From the NCBI RefSeq assembly GCF_963675165.1, contig NC_087387.1, positions 6,155,558 through 6,178,057 of the forward strand: a DNA stretch of 22,500 nucleotides, written 5' to 3'. Below are positions 4,405 to 18,332 of the stretch, piece after piece. Position numbers and translations under genes: made by a program. Every line of letters starts with the position of its first letter. The stretch's first letter is position 1. The stretch comes from Halichondria panicea. Lineage: Eukaryota > Porifera > Demospongiae > Suberitida > Halichondriidae. Below the pieces are notes generated by a model. The model made no database searches. It worked only from the letters and a program-made list of their open reading frames with translations, and was not told the origin of the DNA.

Positions 4405-4502
4405 GCATGTGAGTTAGCTTGAGGCTTTTATTTTTAGTTCCAAAGTGAAAAACACTAATTTTATGGTTCATTTCATATCGGTGGCACCCGGCCTTCTTGA
4501 GT

Positions 4503-4528
4503 TGCCAGGTCAATAGTACCAGTGTCTA
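4503..4528. repeat. Target site duplication, left copy (26 bp)
   Basis: The 26 bases starting TGCCAGGTCAATAGT are repeated at 7888-7913 with one mismatch (A/G) on the far side of the Penelope-like element. This fixes both ends of the insertion. Confidence 0.85.
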
Positions 4529-4530
4529 TA

Positions 4531-4776
4531 AGTACTTTCGGTAAAATAGCTGTGAGCTGGCTAAGGCTATAATTATAGAGTCACTTTCAATTTGTTTTAT
4601 TGTCTAAGCTTTTCATCGCTAAATGCGAATCTTCAGGACAAAAATAATAAAAACAATTGTGACTTTATAGACAAATGAACACCTGACATGTGATACCCAG
4701 ACATCAAACCAGACATCAAACCAGACAACCAAACAGGTTATACTAGTATTTTACTATAGGGCTACCTAGTCAACGT
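4531..4776 (-). repeat. PLE terminal repeat, 3' copy
   Basis: 246 bp, near-identical to 7593-7840. It starts AGTACTTTCGGTAAAATAGC and ends CCTAGTCAACGT. The copies differ mainly by small indels around 4571-4593. It contains a hammerhead-like motif and a tandem ACATCAAACCAG run near 4701-4728. Confidence 0.93.
4595..4643 (-). ncRNA. Hammerhead-ribozyme-like motif in the 3' terminal repeat
   Basis: Read on the minus strand: stem I UUUUGUC; core CUGAAGA (consensus CUGANGA); stem II UUCGC-AUUUA-GCGAU; core GAAA; a minimal stem III AGCUUA; then GACAAUAAAA, which pairs with stem I (UUGUC/GACAA). The predicted cleavage is after the UUA, between the complements of 4605 and 4604, and satisfies the UH rule. 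A one- or two-pair helix III is the form described for Penelope-like elements, thought to work as dimers. One weakness: the first stem II pair is U·U rather than G-C. Confidence 0.62.
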
Positions 4777-4790
4777 TGACTAGGTAGCCC
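4759..4790. repeat. 32-bp perfect palindrome at the body/terminal-repeat junction
   Basis: The halves GGGCTACCTAGTCAAC and GTTGACTAGGTAGCCC are exact reverse complements with no spacer. On the element's own strand, the body ends in an inverted copy of the first 16 bases of the terminal repeat. The 5' repeat lacks this palindrome and instead abuts a different inverted fragment. Confidence 0.92.
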
Positions 4791-4984
4791 TAAAATTTCG
4801 ACAGACAAGTTTGGAAATAGAGGACACACATATAGACATTAAAGTTATCCCCTAAGTTCGACTCAAATATATTCTTCAAGTTTACACCATCAAAAAGTGG
4901 ATTTCTGTATGTCTTAAAAAAGACCGTGGGGTTTGCTGCCTTTTCCTTTTTTCTTTTATGTTTAATGAGTTGACTTCTTGAGTC

Positions 4985-6505
4985 TTAGCTGACTTCCTCA
5001 AAAATCGTCTTCAAAAACCAGATAGGATATCCTCTATTTCTAAGTCGGTTATAGAACAGATTTCTAATCCTTAGAAAATCACATCTTCTTGTGGATAAAC
5101 GAACGTATCTTAACAGTTCGCCTCTAATGAAGCTCCTTTTAGCATGAGAAGGATGATAGGAGTTAAACGGGATATAGAGATAACGGTTGAGTGGTTTTTG
5201 ATAGGGTAACATTATTAGGTAGTCACCGTATGGGTCTATGCAAATCTCCAACTCCAAAGTAACAACCCAATCTTGCGAAATAATTGTTTTAAGTTTAATT
5301 GATTCTGCTAGATAGTTCAAATTATTAATGAAGACCATTAAGTCGATGTAGCTGCCTCCCCAGATAAAAAAAATGTCATCATGAATCTCCTGTAAAACAG
5401 TAGTCCATTTGTATGTAACACAGTCTCTTCTAATCTAGCCATATAGATAACAGCAGCAGACACAGCCATCGGTGTTCCCATAGCCAGACCCCATATTTGA
5501 TGAAATAAAACTCCATGCATTAGCTTCAAAATAATTGTTAGTGAGAACCAGTCTTGAGAGTTTGATAATGAGAGCAGTCAGTGGTATCTCATGGGGCTCT
5601 ACAGAATAAGTCTATAGCAACAAGGCAACTTTCAAAGGAATGTTAGTATACAACGATGTGACATCAGCAGTGACCAGAAAAATTTCCTTATTAAACTTAC
5701 AGCCTGCGAGCTCGTTAATTAGCTGTATTGAGTCTTTTAAATAGCGGTATTGATGGTAACATTGGACTTAAACACAAACCTCGAAGCTGGGGTAGTGATG
5801 TACGTAGTGGATGCTACAATAGGTCGACCCACCATCGGATCTTTATGCACTTTATAGGTAGTATCAACTTAGCTGGTGAGACATTACTGGCCTGACTTAA
5901 TAAGAACTTGGCCATTCTATCTCCTAGAGGTCTACCATACCTCTGAATAATAACACTCAACTTATTACAAATAGTAGCATAAGGGACTTCTTCTACCGCA
6001 TCGTAAAATTTCTTATCGCTGAGCAGGCGACTCAGCTCCTCTTCATACCAACGACTGGTAACAATCATTGGGCCTAGATTTTTATCAGATGGTAAGATAA
6101 ATATGTTTTTATTAGCAAATAGTTTTCTCAGAGTAGCAAACTCGTGGGTAGATAAATTAGGCTTGTGTTTAATCTGTTGTGGTGAAATAGCACATAGTTC
6201 ATGTCGTATGGCAAGTAGAGGTATTTCGATATAATTATGGTGGACAAATCGGTGGAGTCCAATCTGATCTTACAAGGTGATAGGTATATGCATAGTGTTC
6301 AAACTGACCACTGACCCATATCACGAAAAAAATGTTTGATCCTAATTGATCTAGAAAACTCTTCTAATTGCTTTTTACGTGAATGCACAGAAATAGGTAA
6401 CGGTGAAGGCCTGAAATTTAAACCTAATGATAGTAAGTAACTTTCTGAAAGGCTTAAATTATAATTAGTAAAGTTATGTACTCTAGGACAGAAAAATTTA
6501 AACAA
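4985..6505 (-). pseudogene. Penelope-like reverse transcriptase, frameshifted
   Basis: The conserved parts lie in order but in different frames. These are an N-terminal NYNLSLSESYLLSLGLNF block (about 6470), PSDKNLGP (near 6085), YKVHKDPMVGRPIVAS (near 5845-5800, RT motifs 1-2), ADVTSLYTNIP (near 5660, catalytic Asp of motif A), IWGLAMGTPMA (near 5490, motif B) and DDIFFIWGG (near 5370, motif C with the DD pair). A C-terminal HPSHAKRSF...RGYP block (about 5180-5020) follows. Frame changes occur near 6290-6190, 5850, 5740, 5610, 5535 and 5380. These blocks are typical of Penelope-like RTs of invertebrates. A TAG-class stop at 4985 ends the last segment; an in-frame continuation to about 4797 looks weakly RT-tail-like. 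No endonuclease domain follows. Confidence 0.82.
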
Positions 6506-6582
6506 AATGGTGATACAGTAAGACAGAGATTTTTATTAAATAAACGAATGTAACCCACGTACCACCCTTTTATTAGAAGGAG

Positions 6583-7556
6583 TTACTGCTTTCCTCTTCC
6601 TCTTCCTCTTCCTCTTCTTGCTTTGAAGGGGATGGATTTGAAGGGGGTGGGTCTTGCGTTTTTTGTCTCATCAAACTTTACTTTATTCACTTTCTTTAGT
6701 ATACCTTTACTAGGTGAGCGACTGTTTCTTCTCGAATTAGCACTCGAATTGCTAGATCTCAAACTTCTAGATGAACTTCTAGACAATCTAAAAGATCTCG
6801 AGGATCTATCCGGAGAGATGGTAGGCTTCACATTGATCTCTTCAGCTTTGCTTTAGACCTAGATCTATCTTTATTGATGAGGCCTAACTGTTTGAGTCTC
6901 TGATCAATTACATCCTCCACTCTCATTTCGGGGGCAGTATCCATAGCTGACTGTTTAGGTTTCTTCTTATCAGCTTCGTTTGTAGCTTTCAAAAACACGT
7001 TTTCTCTTGTCAGAGTAAGTTGGCTATGATAAAAGCTTAAGTTCATCCTATATCGTGCTTCAATTATGGAGCGGGAGAACTCATCTCCTTCTGACAATGC
7101 GTTAATCTGAGCAGTTTTAGTCACTTCAAAGACTGAGAGAATGTTCTTCTCTATGTCGAGTTTCTTTGATTGTGTTTCCACTATTTTCCTGGTAGTCTCT
7201 CTTGTTCGATGTTGGAGTGAGGAAGCTTGAGCATTCTGTAGAATTGCGTCCAAAGTTCCTTGGCCATCTTCAAACAGAGCTTTTTTCTTAGGTAGCAAAA
7301 GATCCTTAGGGACAGTTCCTTTCGATCTATGCTCCTCCAACAGTTTTGATTTATGGTGCAGTTTGTCAAGATGCGATTCTTGATACACAATATTACTGCA
7401 GGCAGATATCACTTGTTTCCTCATCTCCAGACCAACATGAGCAAAATTAGGGTGAGATTCCGTTTCAGTACGTTGTCTCTTGACCCTAGTTGCTTCACCA
7501 GATGGTTGTAGTTTCAGGAACATTAAAGAGTCCAGGAATGAATGGGCTATTGCCAT
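6583..7556 (-). CDS. ORF1 of the Penelope-like element (coiled-coil, basic C-terminus; split by a frame change)
   Basis: The first part, 7556-6828, is an open 242-residue frame (it stays open upstream to about 7620 without a start). It is rich in Lys/Glu/Gln with helical, coiled-coil-like composition and ends in a basic stretch. At 6831 a second frame takes over (to 6583): Arg/Ser-rich (about residues 5-40), then basic, ending in RRGRGRGRGKQ, an RGG-like RNA-binding tail. The two were probably one protein of about 320 residues. The junction (ATGTGA) could be a mutation or a programmed shift. I recognise no enzymatic motif; a nucleic-acid-binding Gag-like role is inferred from composition and position upstream of the RT. 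The tail is encoded by the (TTCCTC)n run at 6591-6618. Confidence 0.6.
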
Positions 7557-7592
7557 AAGCCATTGTAGCGCGTCTTCAGCAAAATATAACTC

Positions 7593-7840
7593 AGTACTTT
7601 CGGTAAAATAGCTGTGAGCTGGCTAAGGCTATATAGAGTCACTTTCAAATAATTATTGTTTTATTGTCTAAGCTTTTCATCGCTAAATGCGAATCTTCAG
7701 GACAAAAATAATAAAAACAATTGTGACTTTATAGACAAATGAACACCTGACATGTGATACCCAGACATCAAACCAGACATCAAACCAGACAACCAAACAG
7801 GTTATACTAGTATTTTACTATAGGGCTACCTAGTCAACGT
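7593..7840 (-). repeat. PLE terminal repeat, 5' copy
   Basis: 248 bp, matching 4531-4776. Its ORF-proximal end, read on the minus strand, runs into ORF1, whose open frame continues back into the repeat. Confidence 0.93.
7659..7707 (-). ncRNA. Hammerhead-ribozyme-like motif in the 5' terminal repeat
   Basis: Identical in every core and stem position to the motif at 4595-4643, including the U·U closing mismatch in stem II. Predicted cleavage lies between the complements of 7669 and 7668. Two such sites 3,064 bp apart would release one repeat-body unit from a full transcript. Confidence 0.62.
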
Positions 7841-7887
7841 GACTCTATAATTATAGACTTAGCCAGCTCACAGCTATTTACCGAAAG
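7841..7887 (+). repeat. Inverted 47-bp fragment of the terminal repeat
   Basis: GACTCTATAATTATAGACTT through ACCGAAAG is the reverse complement of the repeat end at about 4534-4582, with small differences (one A missing in TATTTTACC). It gives the whole insertion terminal inverted repeats besides its direct repeats. Confidence 0.85.
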
Positions 7888-7913
7888 TGCCAGGTCAATA
7901 GTGCCAGTGTCTA
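7888..7913. repeat. Target site duplication, right copy (26 bp)
   Basis: Partner of 4503-4528, one mismatch in 26. Confidence 0.85.
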
Positions 7914-8569
7914 AGGCCTTCCATGGTGTGGGTGGTACATAGCAAAAACACTTATGTTATATATGAGATGCATCATCGTATTTTAGTGTTAAAATAACAG
8001 AAATTTCTACATGAAATTTCAAAAGATGCGTTTCATTTGACATGTTTTATGTATATATAATTATAGTAAATGAGCCTCTGATGCACATTGGCTATGGAGT
8101 GATGAGTGGTCTGGATTCCTCAGCACACACATTATACCAGGCTATGTGTGTAATTCTAATTACAACTTCGTATACATTTGCAACTTGTTAGATCTTCACT
8201 ATTAACTGACATCTCACCACATAAAATATATAGCTCGGTCTTCCTCAGACTACAATGGAAAAACCTTATTATAGTGTTGTCAATAGAACTACAGATATGC
8301 TACAGTAAGAATACTCAATCAAAAGTAAAGTGAGCTTAATCGATGACATTATCAGTTTTGCACGGACTGAAAAAATGATTATCAAAAACAGTTTAGCAGT
8401 TTGTGGATTTCCCAAAGATGCATGCATGAGCAAACTATAGCCTCCTTTGCAGGCCCTCCTTTTCTGATCTTTGTCACATTAAGAAGAGGAAAATTGAAGG
8501 AACAAAGAAAGAAAGAAGGAAGCGACAAAGAAAAAGGAGATCAACAGTATGTTTCCAATGCATGATCAG
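7914..8569. other. AT-rich intergenic stretch, no gene seen
   Basis: No ORF of convincing composition and no known motif. It holds a purine-rich run near 8482-8540 (GAAAGAAAGAAGG type). The sequence leads directly into the Kelch-derived fragment. Confidence 0.6.
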
Positions 8570-8747: not shown

Positions 8748-9688
8748 ATTATGCCTCGAGGCGTAGCCGCACGAGGGATACGGTAAAGCTGACTGTGTGT
8801 GTGTGTGTGTGTGTGTGTCTGTGTGTCTGTTCCAGCTGTAACTGCTCAACGGTTGCAATGCGACGAAAACTAACAGCTTCTATAGGCTTCTAGCCACGTT
8901 CTCTTGGATTTTGATTCGTGGATTAGCAAACCAAAGCTTCTTTCTCGAGTTATGGCTAGTTTGACTCACATTGAAGGCTGTTGCAGTCTCTTCAGAATCT
9001 TTTATAGCATCATCTGTCCGCACAAACTTTCTATTCAACATATGAGTTAGCCTTGCACTAAAGCGCTAGCTTTTTGTTAGCTACAAGACTCAGAAAATAC
9101 CTGTTAAAACAGCTAGCTAGCAGTAGCCATTTGTGAAATTGATCTCTTTGGACACACCCTTTAATTATTCCTATGGATGTAATGCGCATGCGCGCTCATT
9201 CCCCAGATCCAGATCCTCCTGGCAGAATCATATTTTTCTTGAGGGCCTGGTAAGCCACAAAACACTACTATAGATAACAATATGTATGTACACAAGTCTT
9301 TTCTTCTTAAATATTATAATTATACACTGCATGAACTACAGATCCAATTTTCTTCTTTCTTGAGGTCCTGGTATTAAAGCCACATAATACAACAATAGAT
9401 GCATGTAATAAGTCTTTTCTTCTCAGTGACTTTATATAGATAAGCTAACTTTATGAAATAATTATGCACTTCCGCTTATAATTAATTGAAAACAAAATCT
9501 TCTTCTTTGTTGCTTCCTAGATCCTTGAGGTCCTGGTATAAGCAGCCACAAAACACAACAATGATACCATAATTATACAATTGCAAGTCAGTTTTAGACA
9601 GATTATTTTATACACTTTTTCCTCTTCTATACTTTCTCTTCTATATTTTTGAGCGAAAGCAAATCATGGCGAGAGGCATTAGCACAGC
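8748..9688 (+). mobile_element. Interspersed repeat family 'ATGCCTCG', full-length copy A
   Basis: The end-to-end reverse complement of 14788-16169 (minus its LINE insertion). It begins ATTATGCCTCGAGGCG, has a (TG)n tract at 8794-8818 and a long unique body. It then has three diverged copies of a ~100-bp subrepeat starting near GAGG(G/T)CCTGGTA (9240, 9363, 9528), and ends GAGAGGCATTAGCACAGC. The ends share only a seven-base inverted match (ATGCCTC/GAGGCAT). No protein is encoded. It is probably a non-autonomous element; class unknown. Confidence 0.72.
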
Positions 9689-9784
9689 TAGTTATTCTAT
9701 TAAACACTCAACCAGACCAGTTCACCAGTTCCAGACAATATAGCACTAAATCCATTCAAGCAGCTACAGCTGAACTGTCCCATG

Positions 9785-10612
9785 TTATTTAGAATTTTGA
9801 CCACAGTTGCATTGTATGGGAGATAATCTCATGCCTCCAGGGTAACCATAAGAATTGAATAGTCTGAATCCATACACTGAAACACCTAGAAGGCTGAGCT
9901 GTTTTGATGGCGGATAGAATGAGCTCCAGCAGACACATTCATTCTACTTATGTGGCCACACACCTCACCACTTAAACATGTAACATTCTGCCAGTTAGTA
10001 ACAATAGAATAATAATTATGTTCAATTTGAAAACTCTCAGTAGAAACATACACCGTGACATAGTTGGATTCGAACAGAGGAAACGCTTCGACAAAATAGT
10101 TATTTGTATACTGCTCAATTGGAGTGATTATCATCATGAATGGGTCTCCTACGCCATCAATCTGACTACCATACGCATACTGTGCGACCAGTACTGGAGA
10201 AGTAGATTCAATGCTATAGAAACTGTTAATAGGGATTTCAAATTCTCCTCCAGTCTCCTGGAATTCACTGACTGATACAACAGTGTTGCAGGTCACAGCT
10301 ACACTTACTGCTCGGGCACTAAGAACACGAATACGTTCACCAGAAGATCTACCCTCGAGAGATGCCACGAGGAATTTTGAGCCCCATGTCACAGTCGGAG
10401 GCACTTGTTCAACCAGGTGGTCACAACTGCCTATACCTCTCGGAACCTGAGCACAATTAAACACAGACAAAGGTTTGGAGCTAGTTATTCTTGTTCCTGT
10501 GAGATCATTAGTATCACTTGCAATCAGATATGTTTCCATACTATTGAGTGTTATTGTTGAGGAATGGAATTTGACAACAGTTCCATTATCACAAGCCACC
10601 AACAAAATCATA
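9785..10612 (-). pseudogene. IgGFc-binding-protein-type domain, 3' exon with a frameshift
   Basis: The exon starts at 10612 after a pyrimidine-rich acceptor (CTTCCTAG). It reads through ITSSKPLSVFNCAQVPRG, CDHLVEQVPPTVTWGSKF and QYAYGSQIDGVGDPFMMIITP to NSSAF and a stop at 9886-9888. In another frame immediately downstream, VSVYGFRLFNSYGYPGGM continues the same domain to a stop at 9785-9787. One base is therefore missing near 9889. CDHLxEQxPP...WG and SxYGYPGG are hallmarks of the IgGFc_binding domain of Fcgbp-like, mostly secreted or cell-surface adhesion proteins. Domain length (about 275 residues) is near complete, but no upstream exon or signal peptide was found on this strand. The single lesion could be a sequencing error or a real break. 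Confidence 0.78.
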
Positions 10613-10632
10613 CTAGGAAGGGTGCATGTGCG

Positions 10633-10892
10633 TGTGATTACCCATGCATGCTTTCAAAGAGCACTATTGATCTCAACTAGACTGAGTTACAACCAATCAA
10701 AGCCAGCTATCAAAACAAGCTCATTTCAGAAATATCACCAAAACTATAACCGCGTAATTAGAGGCATAAATAGTTAATAACCATGATATTAGCATACATG
10801 TAAATCTAACTGCTTATACTATTGATCTCAACTAGAGTTACAGCCAATCAAAGCCAGCTTTCAAAATAGGCCCCAGAAATATCTCCAAGGCT
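10633..10892. repeat. Tandem pair of a dispersed repeat (inverted relative to 11450-11870)
   Basis: Bases 10664-10742 and 10819-10892 are diverged direct copies (CTATTGATCTCAACTAGA...CCAATCAAAGCCAGCT...AGAAATAT). Bases 10633-10668 are the reverse complement of 11597-11632 with few mismatches; 10744-10776 pairs with about 11790-11820 (TTATGCCTCTAATTAC). No protein. Confidence 0.75.
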
Positions 10893-11449
10893 ATACATAC
10901 AAGTACCTCAACAACATTTGCCATGTGAAAAGTTGCTAGGATTGGCCGGAGGAAACACCAAAAAACGTGGGAAACAAGAAATCTGGCGAGAGCATAACTT
11001 CAATCCGTTACAACTTCATTCATTTTGTGTGCATGTGCTTGCACTTGACAAACCACATTTACAACTTCAACACTTGCACATTTTTATGCTTTCCACAATT
11101 TGTCACTGTAGTTTTCAGTCTTTAAAAGAGAGGGTCCTTAAAAGGGTTGAGGGAGGTGACCACAGCCATATACCCTACAGCCAGTAGAGTAGCAATACAT
11201 AAACAAGAGAGAGAGTCAATGTATTCAGATACCACCTGATGAGCTTTTTCTTTTTAGCCGGGTCACTGTATCGATTTGAGAAACCAGAGTGCAGTAATAA
11301 TTTATTTTACATGCACCATCCTTCAAAAAAGGATATCACTTAATGACTTCTCTCACCATGCACAATTAAGTATAGGGTACATGAATGTATACACCCCAAT
11401 ACTCCAGGGGCCCTAGTGGCATGGAGTATCCTGAGAGTTTCAATGGAGT
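10893..11449. other. Stretch without a supported gene
   Basis: A weak 89-codon plus-strand frame (10918-11187) has no recognisable composition or splice context and I do not call it. No other signal seen. Confidence 0.5.
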
Positions 11450-11870
11450 GTCAGAGCACATCATGGTACAAGTAGATGTAGAGATATTTCTGAAATGGGC
11501 CTGTTTTGATGTACTAGGTTATTAACTCTCAGTTATTAGTCTTGGAGATACTTCTGAAATGCTTTGACTTTGAGACAATAGTAAAGATTATGATTATAGT
11601 GCTCTTTGATAGCCGACATGCATGGGTAATCACTATAATAATTATAGCCTCAGTTCCAACGAAGTTGAAAAATACATAAATCTAGTTACAATACATAGTT
11701 GGTGACCTAGCGTTATTTTAGAGACAACGAGGCTAGGAACAAAGCTAGGGTAATCACATGCATGCACAGTTTCATGGTTATTGAATTATTTATGCCTCTA
11801 ATTACACGGTTATTGAATTAAAGTTTCTATGTGTGTAGTCTTGGAGATAGTTCAATGGGCCTGTTTTGAT
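11450..11870. repeat. Cluster of copies of the 'GAGATATTTCTGAAATGGGC' repeat
   Basis: The motif GAGATATTTCTGAAATGGGC followed by CTGTTTTGAT occurs at 11481-11510, in shorter form at 11541-11561 and in decayed form at 11838-11870. It occurs inverted at about 10709-10740 and 10861-10892, and again at 22475-22500. It appears to be one end of a small mobile repeat. Confidence 0.7.
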
Positions 11871-11877
11871 ATAGAGG

Positions 11878-11943
11878 TAGTCTCGCGAGCAGACGTGGGA
11901 GGGAGGGAACGTTCCCTCTAGGACAAGTCTGCTCGCGAGACTA
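11878..11943. mobile_element. 66-bp palindromic mini-element with perfect 17-bp inverted repeats
   Basis: TAGTCTCGCGAGCAGAC (11878-11894) is exactly complementary to 11927-11943, with a 32-bp centre. The sequence ATAGAGGTA occurs on both sides (11871-11879 and 11946-11954), partly overlapping the left arm. This suggests an 8-9 bp target duplication. Confidence 0.7.
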
Positions 11944-12051
11944 GCATAGAGGTACCAGGAATGTGGATACAAAAAAATGCAGTAATGTTATAGAGCTATT
12001 ATATAAACTGAGTGGGCACATATACCAGTAGATCTATACCCATCAGTTGCT

Positions 12052-12786
12052 ATGAGCTACATAAATACTGCCTTGATCCTGTCAATAATTACAATCACAT
12101 TTGCTCACAAGAAAGCATCTTGTGATGCCCAAGTCACAGGTAAGACTGCATGAATTCTATTATGCTTGTAAAATCCTATGGATACTATAGATGTGACCTC
12201 ATCAACTGGCAAAAAATTTGCGGTTGGTTTCCCTAGAAATCTTCTGATTAAATTAATTATACTAGTGAAAGTACGACACGCGTGCCTCGATTTAGCAATT
12301 AGCATCTGCAATAACGTTGAGCGTGGGCGGATAATTGACGCAGCACAGTGTTTCTTATCTTAGAGGTCAAAATGCAACAAATATTATATACATATATTAT
12401 ATGTAGAGTGTGCTTTTATGGCTGTTGAAAGATACATGTTACTGTATGTTTAACTACAACCACCTAGCCCTCAGTTTGTTCAATGGTTCGGAGACTCTTT
12501 CATCTGCTATAACTTGAATTCCGGTCCAATTTCAACGCTTTTCTGATTTTCTGAAAGCTTAGAAAGAGACTTTCATATTTGAGATATAAAATTAATGTCA
12601 ATTCTCATTTCAGCTGCTACCCCTCACACACACATACAGGGACGGACGCAAGTGATGATGAATGCGTACGCTGACCTTGTGTTCCAGTTTGGAATGGCTG
12701 ACGAGAACCAAGCCGCTTACATTTGTTTAAGGCCCAACACGGCTGTGCAGTACATCAAAGCTGAATGGTTTTACGATGCCTTCAAG
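12052..12786 (+). CDS. Unrecognised secreted protein, first exons (3' part not found)
   Basis: Exon 1, 12052-12139, starts at ATG and encodes MSYINTALILSIITITFAHK, a typical signal peptide core, ending at a GTAAGA donor in phase 1. Exon 2, 12614-12786, follows a good acceptor (ATTCTCATTTCAG), keeps the frame and ends AAG|GTACAC. Its product contains YADLVFQFGMADENQAAYIC and NTAVQYIKAEWFYDAFK; I recognise no family. An alternative or additional exon at 12191 (after ACTATAG, also phase 1) would give DVTSSTGKKFAVGFPRN. That faintly recalls the opening of IgGFc-type proteins, but it soon loses sense. Downstream the gene is interrupted by repeats and a LINE relic, so it may be truncated. Confidence 0.5.
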
Positions 12787-12818
12787 GTACACACACTATA
12801 CACAGCATTAAAACTCTA

Positions 12819-12975
12819 GTTATGCCTCGGTGCGCATGTGCAAGCAAGGTATACGGTACCGATGAGAAGCGATATGGGCTCCCCCCTTATTTTGGGGCCC
12901 CCGGTCCTAAAACGCTAGCGATTTGGGGTGTTAGAGGGGGCCAATTACGCTAGTGATTTAGGGCCCCCCTCGAGA
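12819..12975 (+). repeat. Short composite repeat: 'ATGCCTCG' end plus GC-rich module
   Basis: Bases 12821-12860 (TATGCCTCGGTGCGCATGTG...GGTATACGGTA) match the first ~45 bp of the repeat at 8748. The following GC-rich module (GAGAAGCGATATGGGCTCCC... GCGATTTAGGGCCCCCC) matches the reverse complement of 20625-20740. Confidence 0.6.
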
Positions 12976-13021
12976 TAGCAACGCAATGTTCTACCATGTA
13001 GTCTACCAGGAGAGAAAGGTG

Positions 13022-13872
13022 CCTCATCGATGAGCAAGCTGCCAGGTGCAACCTCTGAAGGTGGCTTTCAGTTCTATATACTATTGATGACCACGGTTTC
13101 AGAGATGCATCCTGTATTTGTTATGGCTGGCCACTGCCATCAACCCCAACTAAGTGCAACTGTGGCTCAGCCTTCTCAGCAAACCATGCGCAATGATTTT
13201 TACCAATTGGCGACTTCTCAACTAGAAGGCATAACAAGCTACGTGACCTGACTGTTTCACTTCTCACCAAAGTCTGCCACAATGTTGCCACAGAACATGA
13301 GAACCCCGACTACAACCACTAAGCGAGACTCTTTATCACACCGCTCAGCTATTTAACCACTGACAATGCCCGCTTAGACATCTGTGCAAGAGGTTCTGGT
13401 TTGCTGCTCAAAACACATATTTTGATGTACCCGAATGCACCCAGCAACAGCTCCAGAACCATCAAAGCTGCCTACAAGAAACATGAGGTACAAGAAACAT
13501 GAGGACGAAAATAAACGGGCTTACAGCCAACGCGTCAGAGACATTGAGCAAGAAGTTTTCACCCCCTCGTCGACGTCTTCTATAAACCACAGGTAGACTG
13601 GGGCAAGAGGCCGCCACCTTCTACAAAAGACTAGCAGACATACTCGCCTGGAAATAAGCTATACTCAGTAGTAATCAGTTGGCTAAGGTGCAAGCTATCC
13701 TTTGCTGCCGTCCGATCTTCAATTATGTGCATCCGTGGAATAAGATCATCAAATCATGGACCCCTATATACGAAACAAGATCATCAATGGACCCCTACGG
13801 AACAATATCATCAAATCATGGACCCCTACGTGATGCTACATCACTCCAAGAGGGCCTGATCCCTCAAATTTA
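13022..13872 (+). pseudogene. Decayed LINE reverse transcriptase, C-terminal end
   Basis: In successive shifted frames the plus strand gives YGWPLPSTPTKCNCGSAF, RDLTVSLLTKVCHNV, SANTTDNARLDICARGF, YKKHEDENKRAYSQRVRDIE, FYKRLADILAW and WLRCKLSFAAVRSSIMCIRG. These are the ordered C-terminal blocks after the RT domain in a non-LTR retrotransposon lineage common in marine invertebrates. It ends in three imperfect copies of a ~30-bp unit (ATCATCAAATCATGGACCCC, 13745-13830). No intact frame remains and no RT catalytic motif is present. Confidence 0.7.
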
Positions 13873-13879
13873 ATTAACT

Positions 13880-14156
13880 GTCACTATAAACTGCTTTCAA
13901 TAAACCATTATATATGTACACGTATACATGCTTCTTATTATTACTATTATACTACTCCTGGTTCTACATAATAATATATCGGTATGAGATGAGGCCAGCG
14001 TCGTACGCATTAGAAGTAATGGAGGTTGAGTCGAGAATCAATGGCAAAAACAAGTAATGGTCTACGTATAATAATGGCAAAACAATAATATTCAATGTCT
14101 ATAATATAGCTTGCTAGCTAGCTATTTAATAACAATTTAACAGTTTGGTGATACAG
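13880..14156. other. AT-rich 3' flank, nothing identified
   Basis: Low-complexity AT-rich DNA with TAGCTAGCTAGC runs near 14110. It contains no ORF. It would be the 3' flank of the minus-strand integrase/Ulp1/PHD gene. Confidence 0.5.
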
Positions 14157-14787
14157 TTAACATGAATTAGATCTACATGTTATACACAGCCATCCTCTTG
14201 GCCTGACCTTGATGTTCATGCATTTAAAGTGAAACCACTTTTGGCATTCTGTACACTCGGTCATTCGGCTATCATATATCTCTGGAAGACCACAAGTGCA
14301 GTACAGCTCGATGATTATCTGTTTGGGGATCACATCTGTTGATTGCTGCCGAATTTTTAGATTGAGGAAAAGTGCTGAACGTTTTAGCTTCAAAACAGTG
14401 CTGAATGTGTGAACACATTTGTTGTGAGTCATACGTTACATCTTTCGTACTCTTCGCCTGTGCAGCATTGTGTGCATTTGCAATGCTGAAAACACCACAG
14501 TCCATTTCTCCTTCTTGCTGCTGTACAGGCTCAATGTAAACTTTGAGTTTGTTGTTTACCGCAAATTGATTGCCATATATTTGAGCTAGCTGTACTTGAA
14601 GACTTGAGGTTAATTCTCCAGTTGAACAGCTGTCGTATAGTCTCAGTTTTCCATTGGTGAGGCTGGAAACAACCCAGTGCTCTCTTTCCTCAACAAATAG
14701 TATCTGAACGGCTGCATATAATTATAGGCGATAATTATTATTATACACTATGTACATTACAGTAATATAACTAGTGTTCAAGCTGGC

Positions 14788-15197
14788 GCTGTGCTAATGC
14801 CTCTCGCCATGTTTTTGCTTTCGCTCAAAAGTATTAGAGTGTTATATTAGTTTCTATAATGAATTTTATATTAAAGTTAGCTTATCCATATAAAGTCACT
14901 GAGAAGAACACACTTATTTACATGCGTCTATTGTTGTTATTTATTGTATTATGTGGCTTACCAGGACCTCAAGAAAGAAGAAAATTGATTCTTCCAGGAT
15001 CTGTAGTTCAGTGTATATAATATCTAAGAAGAAAAGACCTGTGCACATGCATATTGTTATCTATATTGTTATATGTTTTGTGGCTTACCAGGCCCTCAAG
15101 ACAAAGATGATTCTGCCAGGAGGATCTGGATCTGGATCTTGGATATTATTTTCTCACACATGGGGAATGAGCGCGCATGCGCATTACATCCACAGGA

Positions 15198-15245
<48 letters not shown>

Positions 15246-16090
15246 ATTTTCATTTGGATAGGAATGCTGCATCCACCATAATGGTAGGTTTTCATGCAGG
15301 TCCTATATAAAAGAAGAAAAAATATATATATATAAAACATACATATAGATAATTAATTCTTATATGACAGGTGTTCTCCTAGATTGTAATGTGTAGTGTT
15401 TTCAGGGAGGTTTTGAACAACTTTAAGGTGGGGCATGATTTTGAGGATAGCGGGAGACGGTTGTAGTGCAGAGCACCTGAGTATTCAAAGCTCCTTCTAT
15501 AGTGATCAGAGTTTGGCTGGCCTAGGTGAATATTACCTGATCCACGGGTCCCAATGTTGTACAGTGTCGAGTTGAGTTTAAACTTGTTCTTCAGGTAAGG
15601 AGGGGCGAGGTTCAGCAGACATCTGTGAACTAGAGTGAGCATAAACCTCTGCCGCCTTTCTTGGAGTGTAGTCCAGCCAAGTTGGTCCCTGAGGGGTGAG
15701 CTGCTAGTGCGCGGAGGTTTTCCCAATATCACACGCATTCCATAGAATAATTAAAGGGGTGTGTCCAAAGAGATCAATTTCACAAATGGCTACTGCATGC
15801 TAGCTAGCTATAGCTGTTTTAATTAACAGATATTTTCTGAGTCTTGTAGCTAACAAAAAGCTAGCGCTTTAGTGCAAGGCTAACTCATATGTTGAATAGA
15901 AAGTTTGTGCGAACAGATGATGCTATGAAAGATTCTGAAGAGGCCTTCAATGTGAGTCAAACTAGCCATAACTAGAGAAAGAAGCTTTAGTTTGCTAACC
16001 CACGAATCAAAATCCAAGAGAACGTGGCTAGAAGCCTATAGAAGCTGTTAGTTTTCGTCGCATTGCAACCGTTGAGCAGTTACTGCTGGA

Positions 16091-16125
<35 letters not shown>

Positions 16126-16169
16126 CAGCTTTACCGTATCCCTCCTGCGGCTACGCCTCGAGGCATAAT
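14788..16169 (-). mobile_element. Interspersed repeat family 'ATGCCTCG', copy B, inside the last intron of the integrase/Ulp1 gene
   Basis: Reverse complement of 8748-9688 from CTGTGCTAATGCCTCTCGCC to CGCCTCGAGGCATAAT. It has two rather than three of the internal subrepeats (near 14960 and 15085) and a (CA)n tract at 16094-16123. It is interrupted by a LINE at 15201-15736. It fills most of the 1.5-kb intron between 16211 and 14712. Confidence 0.75.
15201..15736 (-). mobile_element. 5'-truncated LINE with (TATC)n tail, inserted in repeat copy B
   Basis: Minus-strand frame 15736-15379 encodes the C-terminal end of a non-LTR retrotransposon protein: RDQLGWTTLQERRQRFML, VHRCLLNLAPPYLK, SFEYSGALHYNRLPLS. 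These are typical of LINE ORF2 tails of the Jockey/CR1-like groups. Its 3' end is a GATA/TATC microsatellite (15201-15243). Imperfect 13-base flanks (15188-15200 and 15737-15749) look like a target duplication. Aligning copy B with copy A shows the insertion exactly here. Confidence 0.75.
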
Positions 16170-16687
16170 TAGTGATCCATCGAGATAACATTATATAAGC
16201 CTAACCCTTACCTCTTACAACAGAGTCATGACATTGCATTGCTTTAAACTCTTTTTGAGTATAAGTAATGTCGATTGAAGACCATGCAGATGAGGGAACT
16301 GATACCTCAGCACTTCATGGGCAGCATACATAATTTATATGCTTGTCACATAGTTTTCCTCTCTTTACAACTGCCCTATCCCTGTAACGTAGATCTAAGT
16401 CAGGTATCCAGAGACTCCCAGCATACCTGGTCTGAGCATGTGCAATAATTATTATGTAGTTATTAGTATATATTAGGTTCTACATATTAATTGACCGTGC
16501 CTGATCACAAAATTAATGTCAAGACAATTATAATTATCTACATGCCATGCACGTGGCTGACAGAAGTTACCTTTTGACTCTTAGGTACAGACTGATTAGA
16601 CTTTCGTCTCTTAGGTGGTGGTGGACGGTCTAAGGGGACATCAATTGGTTGCAAATGAGTCACCACAGGTCCATGTCCATGTATTCT

Positions 16688-16998
16688 GGTGGGGTGGGAC
16701 CATCGGATTTCTCCGGTGGGGAGGGGGCCATTTGGATCTTCTGGTGGGGTGGGGCCATTAGATTTCTCCGGTGGGGTGGGGCCATTTGAATCTTCTGGTG
16801 GGTGGGGCCATTGGATTTCTCTGGTTGGGTAGAGCCATTGGATTTCTTCGCTGGGGTGGGGCCATTTGGATCTTCTGGTGGGGTGGGACCATCGGATTTC
16901 TCCGGTGGGGAGGGGGCCATTTGGATCTTCTGGTGGGGTGGGGCCATTGGATTTCTCTGGTGGGGTAGAGCCATTGGATTTATCCGGTGGAGTTTGGC
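16688..16998 (-). repeat. 27-bp tandem repeat encoding a Pro-rich nine-residue unit
   Basis: About eleven units of GGTGGGGTGGGGCCATTGG-type sequence (plus strand) encode PPEKSDGPT or PPEDPNGPT on the minus strand. Most units are 27 bp, but two are 28 and one is 26, which shifts the frame inside exon 7. A block of about three units is duplicated at higher order (16688-16770 and 16877-16960). Confidence 0.9.
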
Positions 16999-18332
16999 CA
17001 CTGAGAGCTACATTAGGGATCGAATCTCATGCGCATGCAGGCTACATGCATGTATATATGTGCAGTATCAAATTGCCGCCTGTGCTGGTAGCTAAATAAA
17101 TACCTTTTTGTTCAACCAATGAAGAAGGATCCATATAAGCCTGTATTATGCATGTGTTATCACAATTATGGTATATATAGTTATAGGATTAGCTATATAC
17201 ATTCATATTTACCTTGAGACGTTTGATATTACATTTCTTTTTTAACACCTTCCCATCCAAGTCCTTAAGGGTAAAGACACCCTTTCCATCTGAGGTCTTA
17301 ATAATGTATGGTCCACTATACTTGTTTTCGAGCTTTCCACCTTTCCTCTCCTTTTGTTGGGTGTTCTCAACCAAAACCTTGATTCCAGGTTGCAGTTTCT
17401 AAATATAAAATGTATTTAATTTGCTTAGAACAAACTGCACAGTTTGAAATCATATATGCTTCGTACATAATTATAGCATTCGCACACATGAATGTGCAAG
17501 TGTATATATACTTGCATGCAGCCTGTATAATATATACAGGGCTGTATAATTATATACCTCTGGTGAATGCCGTTTATCATAGCACTCCTTTTGCTTTTTT
17601 GAGATTTTTTTATGTTTTCACCAGCTATGCTCTTTATATCTTCTTGCCTCTTGAGCATTTTCTCAATAAAAGCATCTGCAGTTGTCTCTGTATCTATATC
17701 TTCATGCACTGGTCACTATTTCGTTTTGCTCTACATCTGCTTCTATAGGCAGCCGAGCTTCACGATGAAACATCATGAAGAATGGTGAATAGCTGGTTGA
17801 TCGGTGTTTTGACACTCGGTATGCAAACAGAATAGTGTCTAGCTTTGTATCCCAATCATTGTGTGCTTCATTCACTAACTTGCTGAGAGAACGACAGATT
17901 GTCTGATTGAATCGCTCCGTGAGGCCATTAGTCTGAAAATTCAGTGATTAGCCATAATAATTATAACATAATTGCATGTATATCCTATGCATGTATTCAC
18001 TCCTTTTTGCACTAGGTAAAAGTAAAAACGTTCACTCCTTTAAAATAAGTTCGAACTTCTTTTCTGGGGTGGTGTGAAAGTATATCTATATATGGCATCA
18101 TTTATTATACAGTATTTAATTATGTGCATGCATGCTTCTTACTTGAGGATGATAGGCGGAAGTGATTCTATGCTGTGTGTTTGTTCTTTTAAAGAGTGCC
18201 TCAGTAACTTTTATTGACAAATTCTCTTCCTTGGTCACTGAGGATAACAGTAGGGCAGCCGTATGTGCAAAATACCTGCGTTACAGTAAATAATTATAAC
18301 TAATTAGGGCCATTGTATACACAGCACGTTAT

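Follow-up and report, generated by a model that had tools for sequence, protein, structure and literature searches.

Probable minimal hammerhead ribozymes in the terminal repeats of a decayed Penelope-like element of the sponge Halichondria panicea

A 22,500-nt stretch of the Halichondria panicea genome (NC_087387.1, positions 6,155,558 to 6,178,057; hereafter the window) holds a decayed Penelope-like element (PLE), and a short sequence resembling a hammerhead ribozyme occurs on the minus strand in each of its terminal repeats. The question raised by this locus is whether that sequence is a genuine hammerhead and, if it is, of what kind and with what part in the life of the element. We conclude that it is very probably a minimal type I hammerhead of the kind found in PLEs, carried once in each pseudo-long-terminal repeat (pseudo-LTR, pLTR). 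Hammerhead cleavage, its part in releasing an element unit, and the formation of any circle are what we infer from this assignment.

Exactly two such motifs were found in the window, at 4641 to 4600 in the 3' pLTR and at 7705 to 7664 in the 5' pLTR, by a pattern scanner and also by a covariance model of the family. The two copies are identical, and read 5' to 3' they consist of TTGTC, CTGAAGA, T, TCGC, ATTTA, GCGA, T, GAAA, AGCTT, A and GACAA. In the RNA, UUGUC and GACAA make up stem I, while UCGC and GCGA make up a 4-bp stem II with the loop AUUUA. Helix III is a single pair, A15.1-U16.1, with an AGCU loop; A17 follows, and then the GACAA strand of stem I. The conserved core (CUGANGA, GAA-A and a UH cleavage site) is complete in both copies, with all eleven of the conserved hammerhead bases present. 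Cleavage is predicted between 4605 (A17) and 4604 in the one copy, and between 7669 and 7668 in the other. Because the one-pair helix III closes on AGCU, the sequence AAGCUU (4606-4611 and 7670-7675, minus strand) is a palindrome; the sequence, the genome copies and co-folding point to a helix III of 1 bp in the monomer and 6 bp in a dimer. The original prediction had placed two identical hammerhead-like motifs at 4595-4643 and 7659-7707, one per terminal repeat on the minus strand, with CUGAAGA, a stem-loop, GAAA, a tiny helix III, a UUGUC/GACAA stem and a valid UH site, and all of this is borne out in both copies. They lie within a 185-bp block (4592-4776 and 7656-7840) that is 100% identical between its two occurrences, 3064 bp apart. 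Since this is one repeat present twice, the two window motifs are not independent.

The element itself occupies 4529-7887 on the minus strand (3.36 kb) and is bounded by a 26-bp target-site duplication (4503-4528, with one mismatch, and 7888-7913). Direct repeats and genome matches define the 3' pLTR (4531-4776, minus; repeats D3 and D5) and the 5' pLTR (7593-7840, minus), and an inverted copy of the pLTR end forms an inverted tail at the 5' end of the element (7841-7887, plus; inverted repeat I8, arm 7836-7879). Translation and tblastn place a broken Penelope-like reverse transcriptase (RT) at 4841-6170 (minus), in three frames with stops; upstream of it, a 264-aa open frame (6828-7622, minus) gave no family match at or above the curated cut-off. 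In the translated RT we read DKNLG and related motifs, which we take to be PLE RT motifs. The RT of L071, a locus of the same genome whose open frames hold RVT_1 and GIY-YIG (GIY-YIG Pfam 40.3 bits), aligns to the window interior with 26.7% identity over 326 aa (tblastn, E 3.6e-23; further pieces at E 5.6e-10). This homology to a GIY-YIG-bearing PLE, alongside the pLTRs, the inverted tail and the target-site duplication, upholds the earlier Penelope-like reading of the locus. In a narrow motif scan GIY-YIG was seen only in L062 and L071, and not in the window or in L031-L050. The pLTR repeat begins soon after the RT in the window element, and the alignment of L036, a member of another subfamily, runs unbroken across this RT-to-repeat junction, so the lack of GIY-YIG may be old. 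PLEs lacking the endonuclease are known, according to passages of PMC6431247. Three further copies on the same contig (L032, L033 and L034 on C11) share flanks with the window on both sides; they were considered as independent insertions, but with such flanks the four are segmental duplications of one insertion and are counted as one event.

To what extent is the motif kept across the family? We searched the 131-Mb genome that contains the window (39 contigs), where the pLTR has 57 matches by DNA similarity, the window's own included. In the best 30 of these 57, fetched by similarity alone, the whole core is kept in 26, with C3, G8, G12 and U16.1 among the kept bases, and position 17 is A or U in all 26 of those. 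The four losses are L004 (U16.1 changed), L006 (G8), L011 (C3) and L025 (3' part lost), and the AAGCTT palindrome is present in 27 of the 30. Several of the 30 are duplicates of one insertion: L001-L006 and L008 derive from a single insertion, and others lie within tandem arrays. Conservation of the core among family copies had been set beforehand as a test of the prediction, and the motif passes it. Pattern searches gave 37 exact matches with the inner stem I and palindrome fixed, 40 with the core and inner stem I fixed and both stem II and the helix III loop free, and 41 with stem I free and AGCTT fixed, against 0 for the reversed control each time; the union of the stem-II-free and stem-I-free searches is 44 motif places. 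When the loop over helix III was allowed any length from 0 to 12 nt, all 40 matches still had a four-base loop and 37 had AAGCTT, the exceptions being C3:7004267, C17:333607 and C2:7939635. In an alignment of 21 copies, chosen from 41, the columns of the motif average 0.93 identity and those of the flanks 0.67; for the core, this figure carries a bias from the way in which some copies had been retrieved.

Further support comes from stem II, which was never imposed by the search pattern behind the variants described here. Besides UCGC/GCGA we see UCGUA/UACGA (C17:1192414), UUGCUA/UAGCAA (C4:7419162) and UUACGA/UCGUAA (C17:333607); the last is the clearest single case, its stem II being largely different yet fully paired. 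Over 19 distinct sequences, including damaged ones and excluding C1:5661713 (lopsided closing bases) and L025, 72 of the 76 cells for pairs 10.2-10.5 hold a standard pair, a level reached by 2 of 20000 arm shuffles. A second set, the 12-row alignment A1, purposely excluded the window's own subfamily (A); also left out were copies with a lost core base and the damaged or near-duplicate copies C10:1995304, C10:5589890, C2:7939635, C9:419186, C3:7004267, C14:1630194 and C1:5661713. In A1 four stem II pairs show double-sided change and none of 500 shuffles reaches the covariation score; its pairing of 96.7% is flattering owing to the excluded rows. Double-sided changes at separate loci are direct evidence for a helix, though relatedness inflates such tests. 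A covariance model trained on A1 (R1), in which no row came from the window's subfamily, scores 50.6 bits (E 1.5e-16) on each of the two window motifs. The R1 match establishes that they are related to the family, and the compensation in stem II establishes the helix; along with the kept core they back the hammerhead reading. A third R1 match at 11537-11570 (plus, 17.3 bits, E 0.00044) is without CUGANGA and was taken as chance.

Minimal type I hammerheads were reportedly found in PLEs by Cervera and De la Pena (2014) and by Lunse, Weinberg and Breaker (2017). Passages of PMC7761336, PMC6155905 and PMC6466107 cover such minimal motifs and the proposal that they act as dimers, and the reviews PMC7761336 and PMC6466107 describe the monomers as poor. 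The window motif resembles the published ones in being type I, in its near-absent helix III and palindromic loop, in having one copy per flanking repeat, and in the dimer action proposed for it. Dimer-acting minimal hammerheads in PLE repeats are already established, and the motif described here represents a new family of that kind. It differs from canonical PLEs in its broken RT and in that no GIY-YIG was seen in the narrow scan. The axolotl motifs described in PMC7229834 are also close: HHR_Amex1 shares the one-pair helix III under a palindromic tetraloop and is poor as a monomer and good as a dimer, and HHR_Amex2 shares the U·U at the base of stem II and shows 22% monomer cleavage in one hour, with better cleavage as a dimer. 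As described there, the axolotl and newt HHR_Amex motifs are canonical type I hammerheads in 330-350-bp tandem retrozyme repeats, whereas the window motif sits in PLE repeats. In the Anolis Poseidon PLE (PAc), going by the relevant passages of PMC11167929, a hammerhead likewise lies at the junction of pLTR and open reading frame. Unlike the window element, PAc has an active protein, its ribozyme cleavage in vitro needed that PLE protein, and its reading frame starts at stem II. The role of hammerheads in PLEs was called unknown in a passage of a 2020 review (PMC7761336). The present family offers a natural series within one genome: at its 44 places stem II has diverged and its base is mostly non-standard, and the motif occurs singly, in inverted pairs and in tandem, so that the dimer idea can be tested on natural variants.

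In the mechanism that we propose, a single copy would be a poor catalyst, having a one-pair helix III with a palindromic AGCU loop that should not form a stable hairpin. Two motifs, whether carried by one transcript that covers both repeats or by two separate ones, would pair via AAGCUU and exchange their strands of stem I, and the resulting double hammerhead would have two cleavage sites. If both were cut, a single element unit of 3064 nt would be released, bearing a 5'-OH and a 2',3'-cyclic phosphate, and this unit would be open to re-ligation or circularisation. The energy model predicts the dimer fold for the window copy: two window copies co-folded as a double hammerhead give -17.9 kcal/mol, and the best fold (-18.1) has the same layout minus outer pairs.

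A number of results, set out in this and the next two paragraphs, weigh against the hammerhead reading. Taken singly, the stem II pairs are weaker, with shuffles reaching the observed pairing in 944 of 10000 cases at 10.3, 180 at 10.4 and 174 at 10.5; pair 10.2 never varies, and at 10.6 no more than 11 of the 19 sequences can pair. Stem I shows no covariation in A1: its inner three pairs are invariant, and the outer two are broken in 2 of 9 rows each. The C11 copies, the window's among them, yielded seven motifs, five of them whole and two lacking a core base, as expected of a dead copy. Pair 10.1-11.1 is usually a standard one, G-C. Here 18 of the 19 sequences have a non-standard one (eight U·U, seven A·G and three A·A), and the remaining sequence has A-U. 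Within the present family the non-standard pair is a shared trait, largely split by subfamily. A literature search aimed at 10.1-11.1 returned nothing; a U·U base is nonetheless described for HHR_Amex2 in PMC7229834, and for this reason a standard pair is usual rather than strictly defining for minimal PLE hammerheads. The U·U closing pair reported in the original prediction is therefore real and confirmed in both window copies, while its being "unusual" is weaker than claimed, as it is common to part of the family and to an axolotl motif that cleaves in vitro. The covariance-model search proposed at that time found no Rfam hammerhead in the whole window at the gathering score and, at E<=10, none in 4450-7950 or in the motif-bearing relatives L049, L063, L066 and L069. 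A genome search with RF00163 likewise had none of the motif copies among the 73 scored of 13744 candidates. The Rfam models used here miss this hammerhead type, and with cleavage predicted only, the caution about activity in the original prediction still holds. A hammerhead of canonical appearance lies in L051 (1501-1558; C9:2565689-2565746, plus): a type I motif whose helix III is longer, with GCCAUG/CAUGGC as stem I and GUUC/GAAC as stem II, scoring 26.3 bits with RF00163 (E 0.019, under the cut-off of 34) and having one genome match by DNA search. As a control, RF00163 at E<=10 gave matches in 11 of 14 other genomes, none above the cut-off.

Folding also gives mixed support. Folded by itself, the window motif does not stand out from shuffled sequences (z -0.67 to -0.98), and its activity as a monomer is for that reason expected to be poor, by analogy with the amphibian motifs and the PLE motifs of the reviews. 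The minimum-energy fold of a 44-nt segment has stems I and II, and those of 50- and 66-nt segments are another fold that is not a hammerhead. Among co-folds of eight family sequences, the plain double hammerhead is best for the window only; two keep stem I with helix III extended to the eight-base AAAGCUUU, taking in U17, and five lose stem I.

Insertion junctions were read at L031, L038, L042, L044 and L045 (C9:6901450 was left out), and none falls at the predicted cleavage site. The short arrays described below carry the motif uncut. Both points, like the Anolis mutants mentioned below, speak against a part for the ribozyme in insertion in vivo. A possible footprint of ribozyme cleavage had been seen in several partial pLTR matches that begin at query position 172, which is the predicted site. 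This was dropped after the junctions were read: since the subfamilies differ, position 172 is a mere alignment end, and L042 and L038 are likewise without a break there. The inverted tails of L031, L044 and L045 instead begin in loop II; L044 and L045 look like duplicates of each other. These observations bring forward the strongest rival, a hammerhead by descent that now acts as a folded RNA signal (for protein binding, or for RT stop or jump), with catalysis weak or vestigial. The loop II starts and the junction readings favour it, as does the T-run directly 5' of the motif, in which the short units of L037, L038 and L039 all have their start. So too does the Anolis PLE, where passages of PMC11167929 report that ribozyme mutants inserted normally in vitro. 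Set against it are the retention of C3, G8, G12 and U16.1 in 26 of the 30 similarity-fetched copies, with A or U at position 17 in every one of those; the keeping of the core while flanks diverge; and the palindromic AGCU loop in 37 of 40 matches. We regard this alternative as a serious one that is nonetheless unlikely beside a cleaving minimal hammerhead.

The part most worth following is a set of three short tandem arrays of mini-units, each unit made up of the hammerhead and a pLTR tail: L037 (C1:15938700-15939282), L038 (C6:1690896-1691228) and L039 (C10:5463830-5464198). They have 3, 2 and 2 motifs in a row, spaced 122, 124 and 114 bp apart, respectively. The units open with a T-run and GTCCTGAAGA and close at or near the pLTR end. 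By eye, the mini-unit of L039 comes after a full-length pLTR, and in L037 a reversed piece of the element interior and an inverted unit precede the first unit. In a duplication check covering L037 and L038, the latter lay between two copies of a 55-bp direct repeat that differ by one mismatch, as expected of a genuine insertion, and L037 had no clear target-site duplication. We tentatively suggest, while holding it rather doubtful, that a PLE pLTR was here pared down until only a mobile unit of 114-124 bp was left, consisting of the hammerhead and some 75 bp of the repeat's tail, and that this unit inserts head to tail via another element's enzymes. If true, we would be seeing a mini-retrozyme in the course of its origin from a PLE, with the 5' edge of the ribozyme as a recurrent breakpoint. 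A link between PLEs and retrozymes has been proposed, and the short arrays are relevant to it. They are alike in layout to tandem animal retrozymes, and differ in being PLE-derived and smaller. This resemblance of tandem units with one motif each is also what speaks for a second rival, that the motif is part of a retrozyme rather than of a PLE, retrozymes being small non-autonomous elements that form circular RNA and carry canonical type I hammerheads. We consider this very improbable for the window motif, which has a minimal helix III and lies within long repeats around PLE RT remnants; animal retrozymes are recognised as non-coding tandem repeats of about 150-400 bp that have canonical type I hammerheads as their limits and are expressed as circRNA, and the window element has coding remnants inside.

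The last rival, a chance likeness within an AT-rich repeat that was copied along with it, gains something from the non-independence of the window copies and the shared ancestry of most genome copies, and is in practice refuted by the compensating stem II changes between diverged copies. Against it stand also the empty reversed-pattern controls, a stricter-helix scan in which the true core gave 2 and each of 300 scrambled cores gave 0, and 500 dinucleotide shuffles with 11 motifs in all, or 0.022 expected per window versus 2 in the real one (the scanner took CUGANGA, stem II of at least 3 bp, GAAA, UH and stem I of at least 4 bp, with the real window counted under nearly the same rules).

Some further observations concern the element and its relatives. 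By eye, a 36-bp perfect palindrome lies at 4757-4792, where the 3' pLTR meets the RT side. L071 (C12:6451000-6456400) is a PLE in tandem arrangement, about 4.5 kb in size, whose RT and GIY-YIG frames are long and open; no hammerhead was found in it by the scanner, by Rfam at E<=10 or by R1, unlike the statement in a passage of PMC6155905 that all available PLE sequences show one. A PLE RT-like match lies within a 5048-aa open frame at C7:5186980-5187375 (minus). An RVT_1 match about 0.5 kb from L010 was rejected as part of the element, being by eye a Ty3-like neighbour with zinc-knuckle and protease-like frames. A 63-bp pLTR piece recurs with 98-100% identity at 8 spaced places from C1:1243772 to C1:2069182, one of them about 1.1 kb from an RVT_1 match.

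Elsewhere in the window, neighbouring open frames encode Kelch repeats, a protein kinase and an IgGFc-binding domain, and have an animal-like look. The region 8748-16169 (about 7.4 kb) lies between long inverted repeats whose blocks are 79-98% complementary, and contains an IgGFc-binding match (9886-10653) and an Ulp1-protease (C48) match just below the cut-off (14272-14721); it is perhaps a large DNA transposon. Further on, at 16684-17017, there is a short tandem repeat in which the spacing ranges from 27 to 55 bp.

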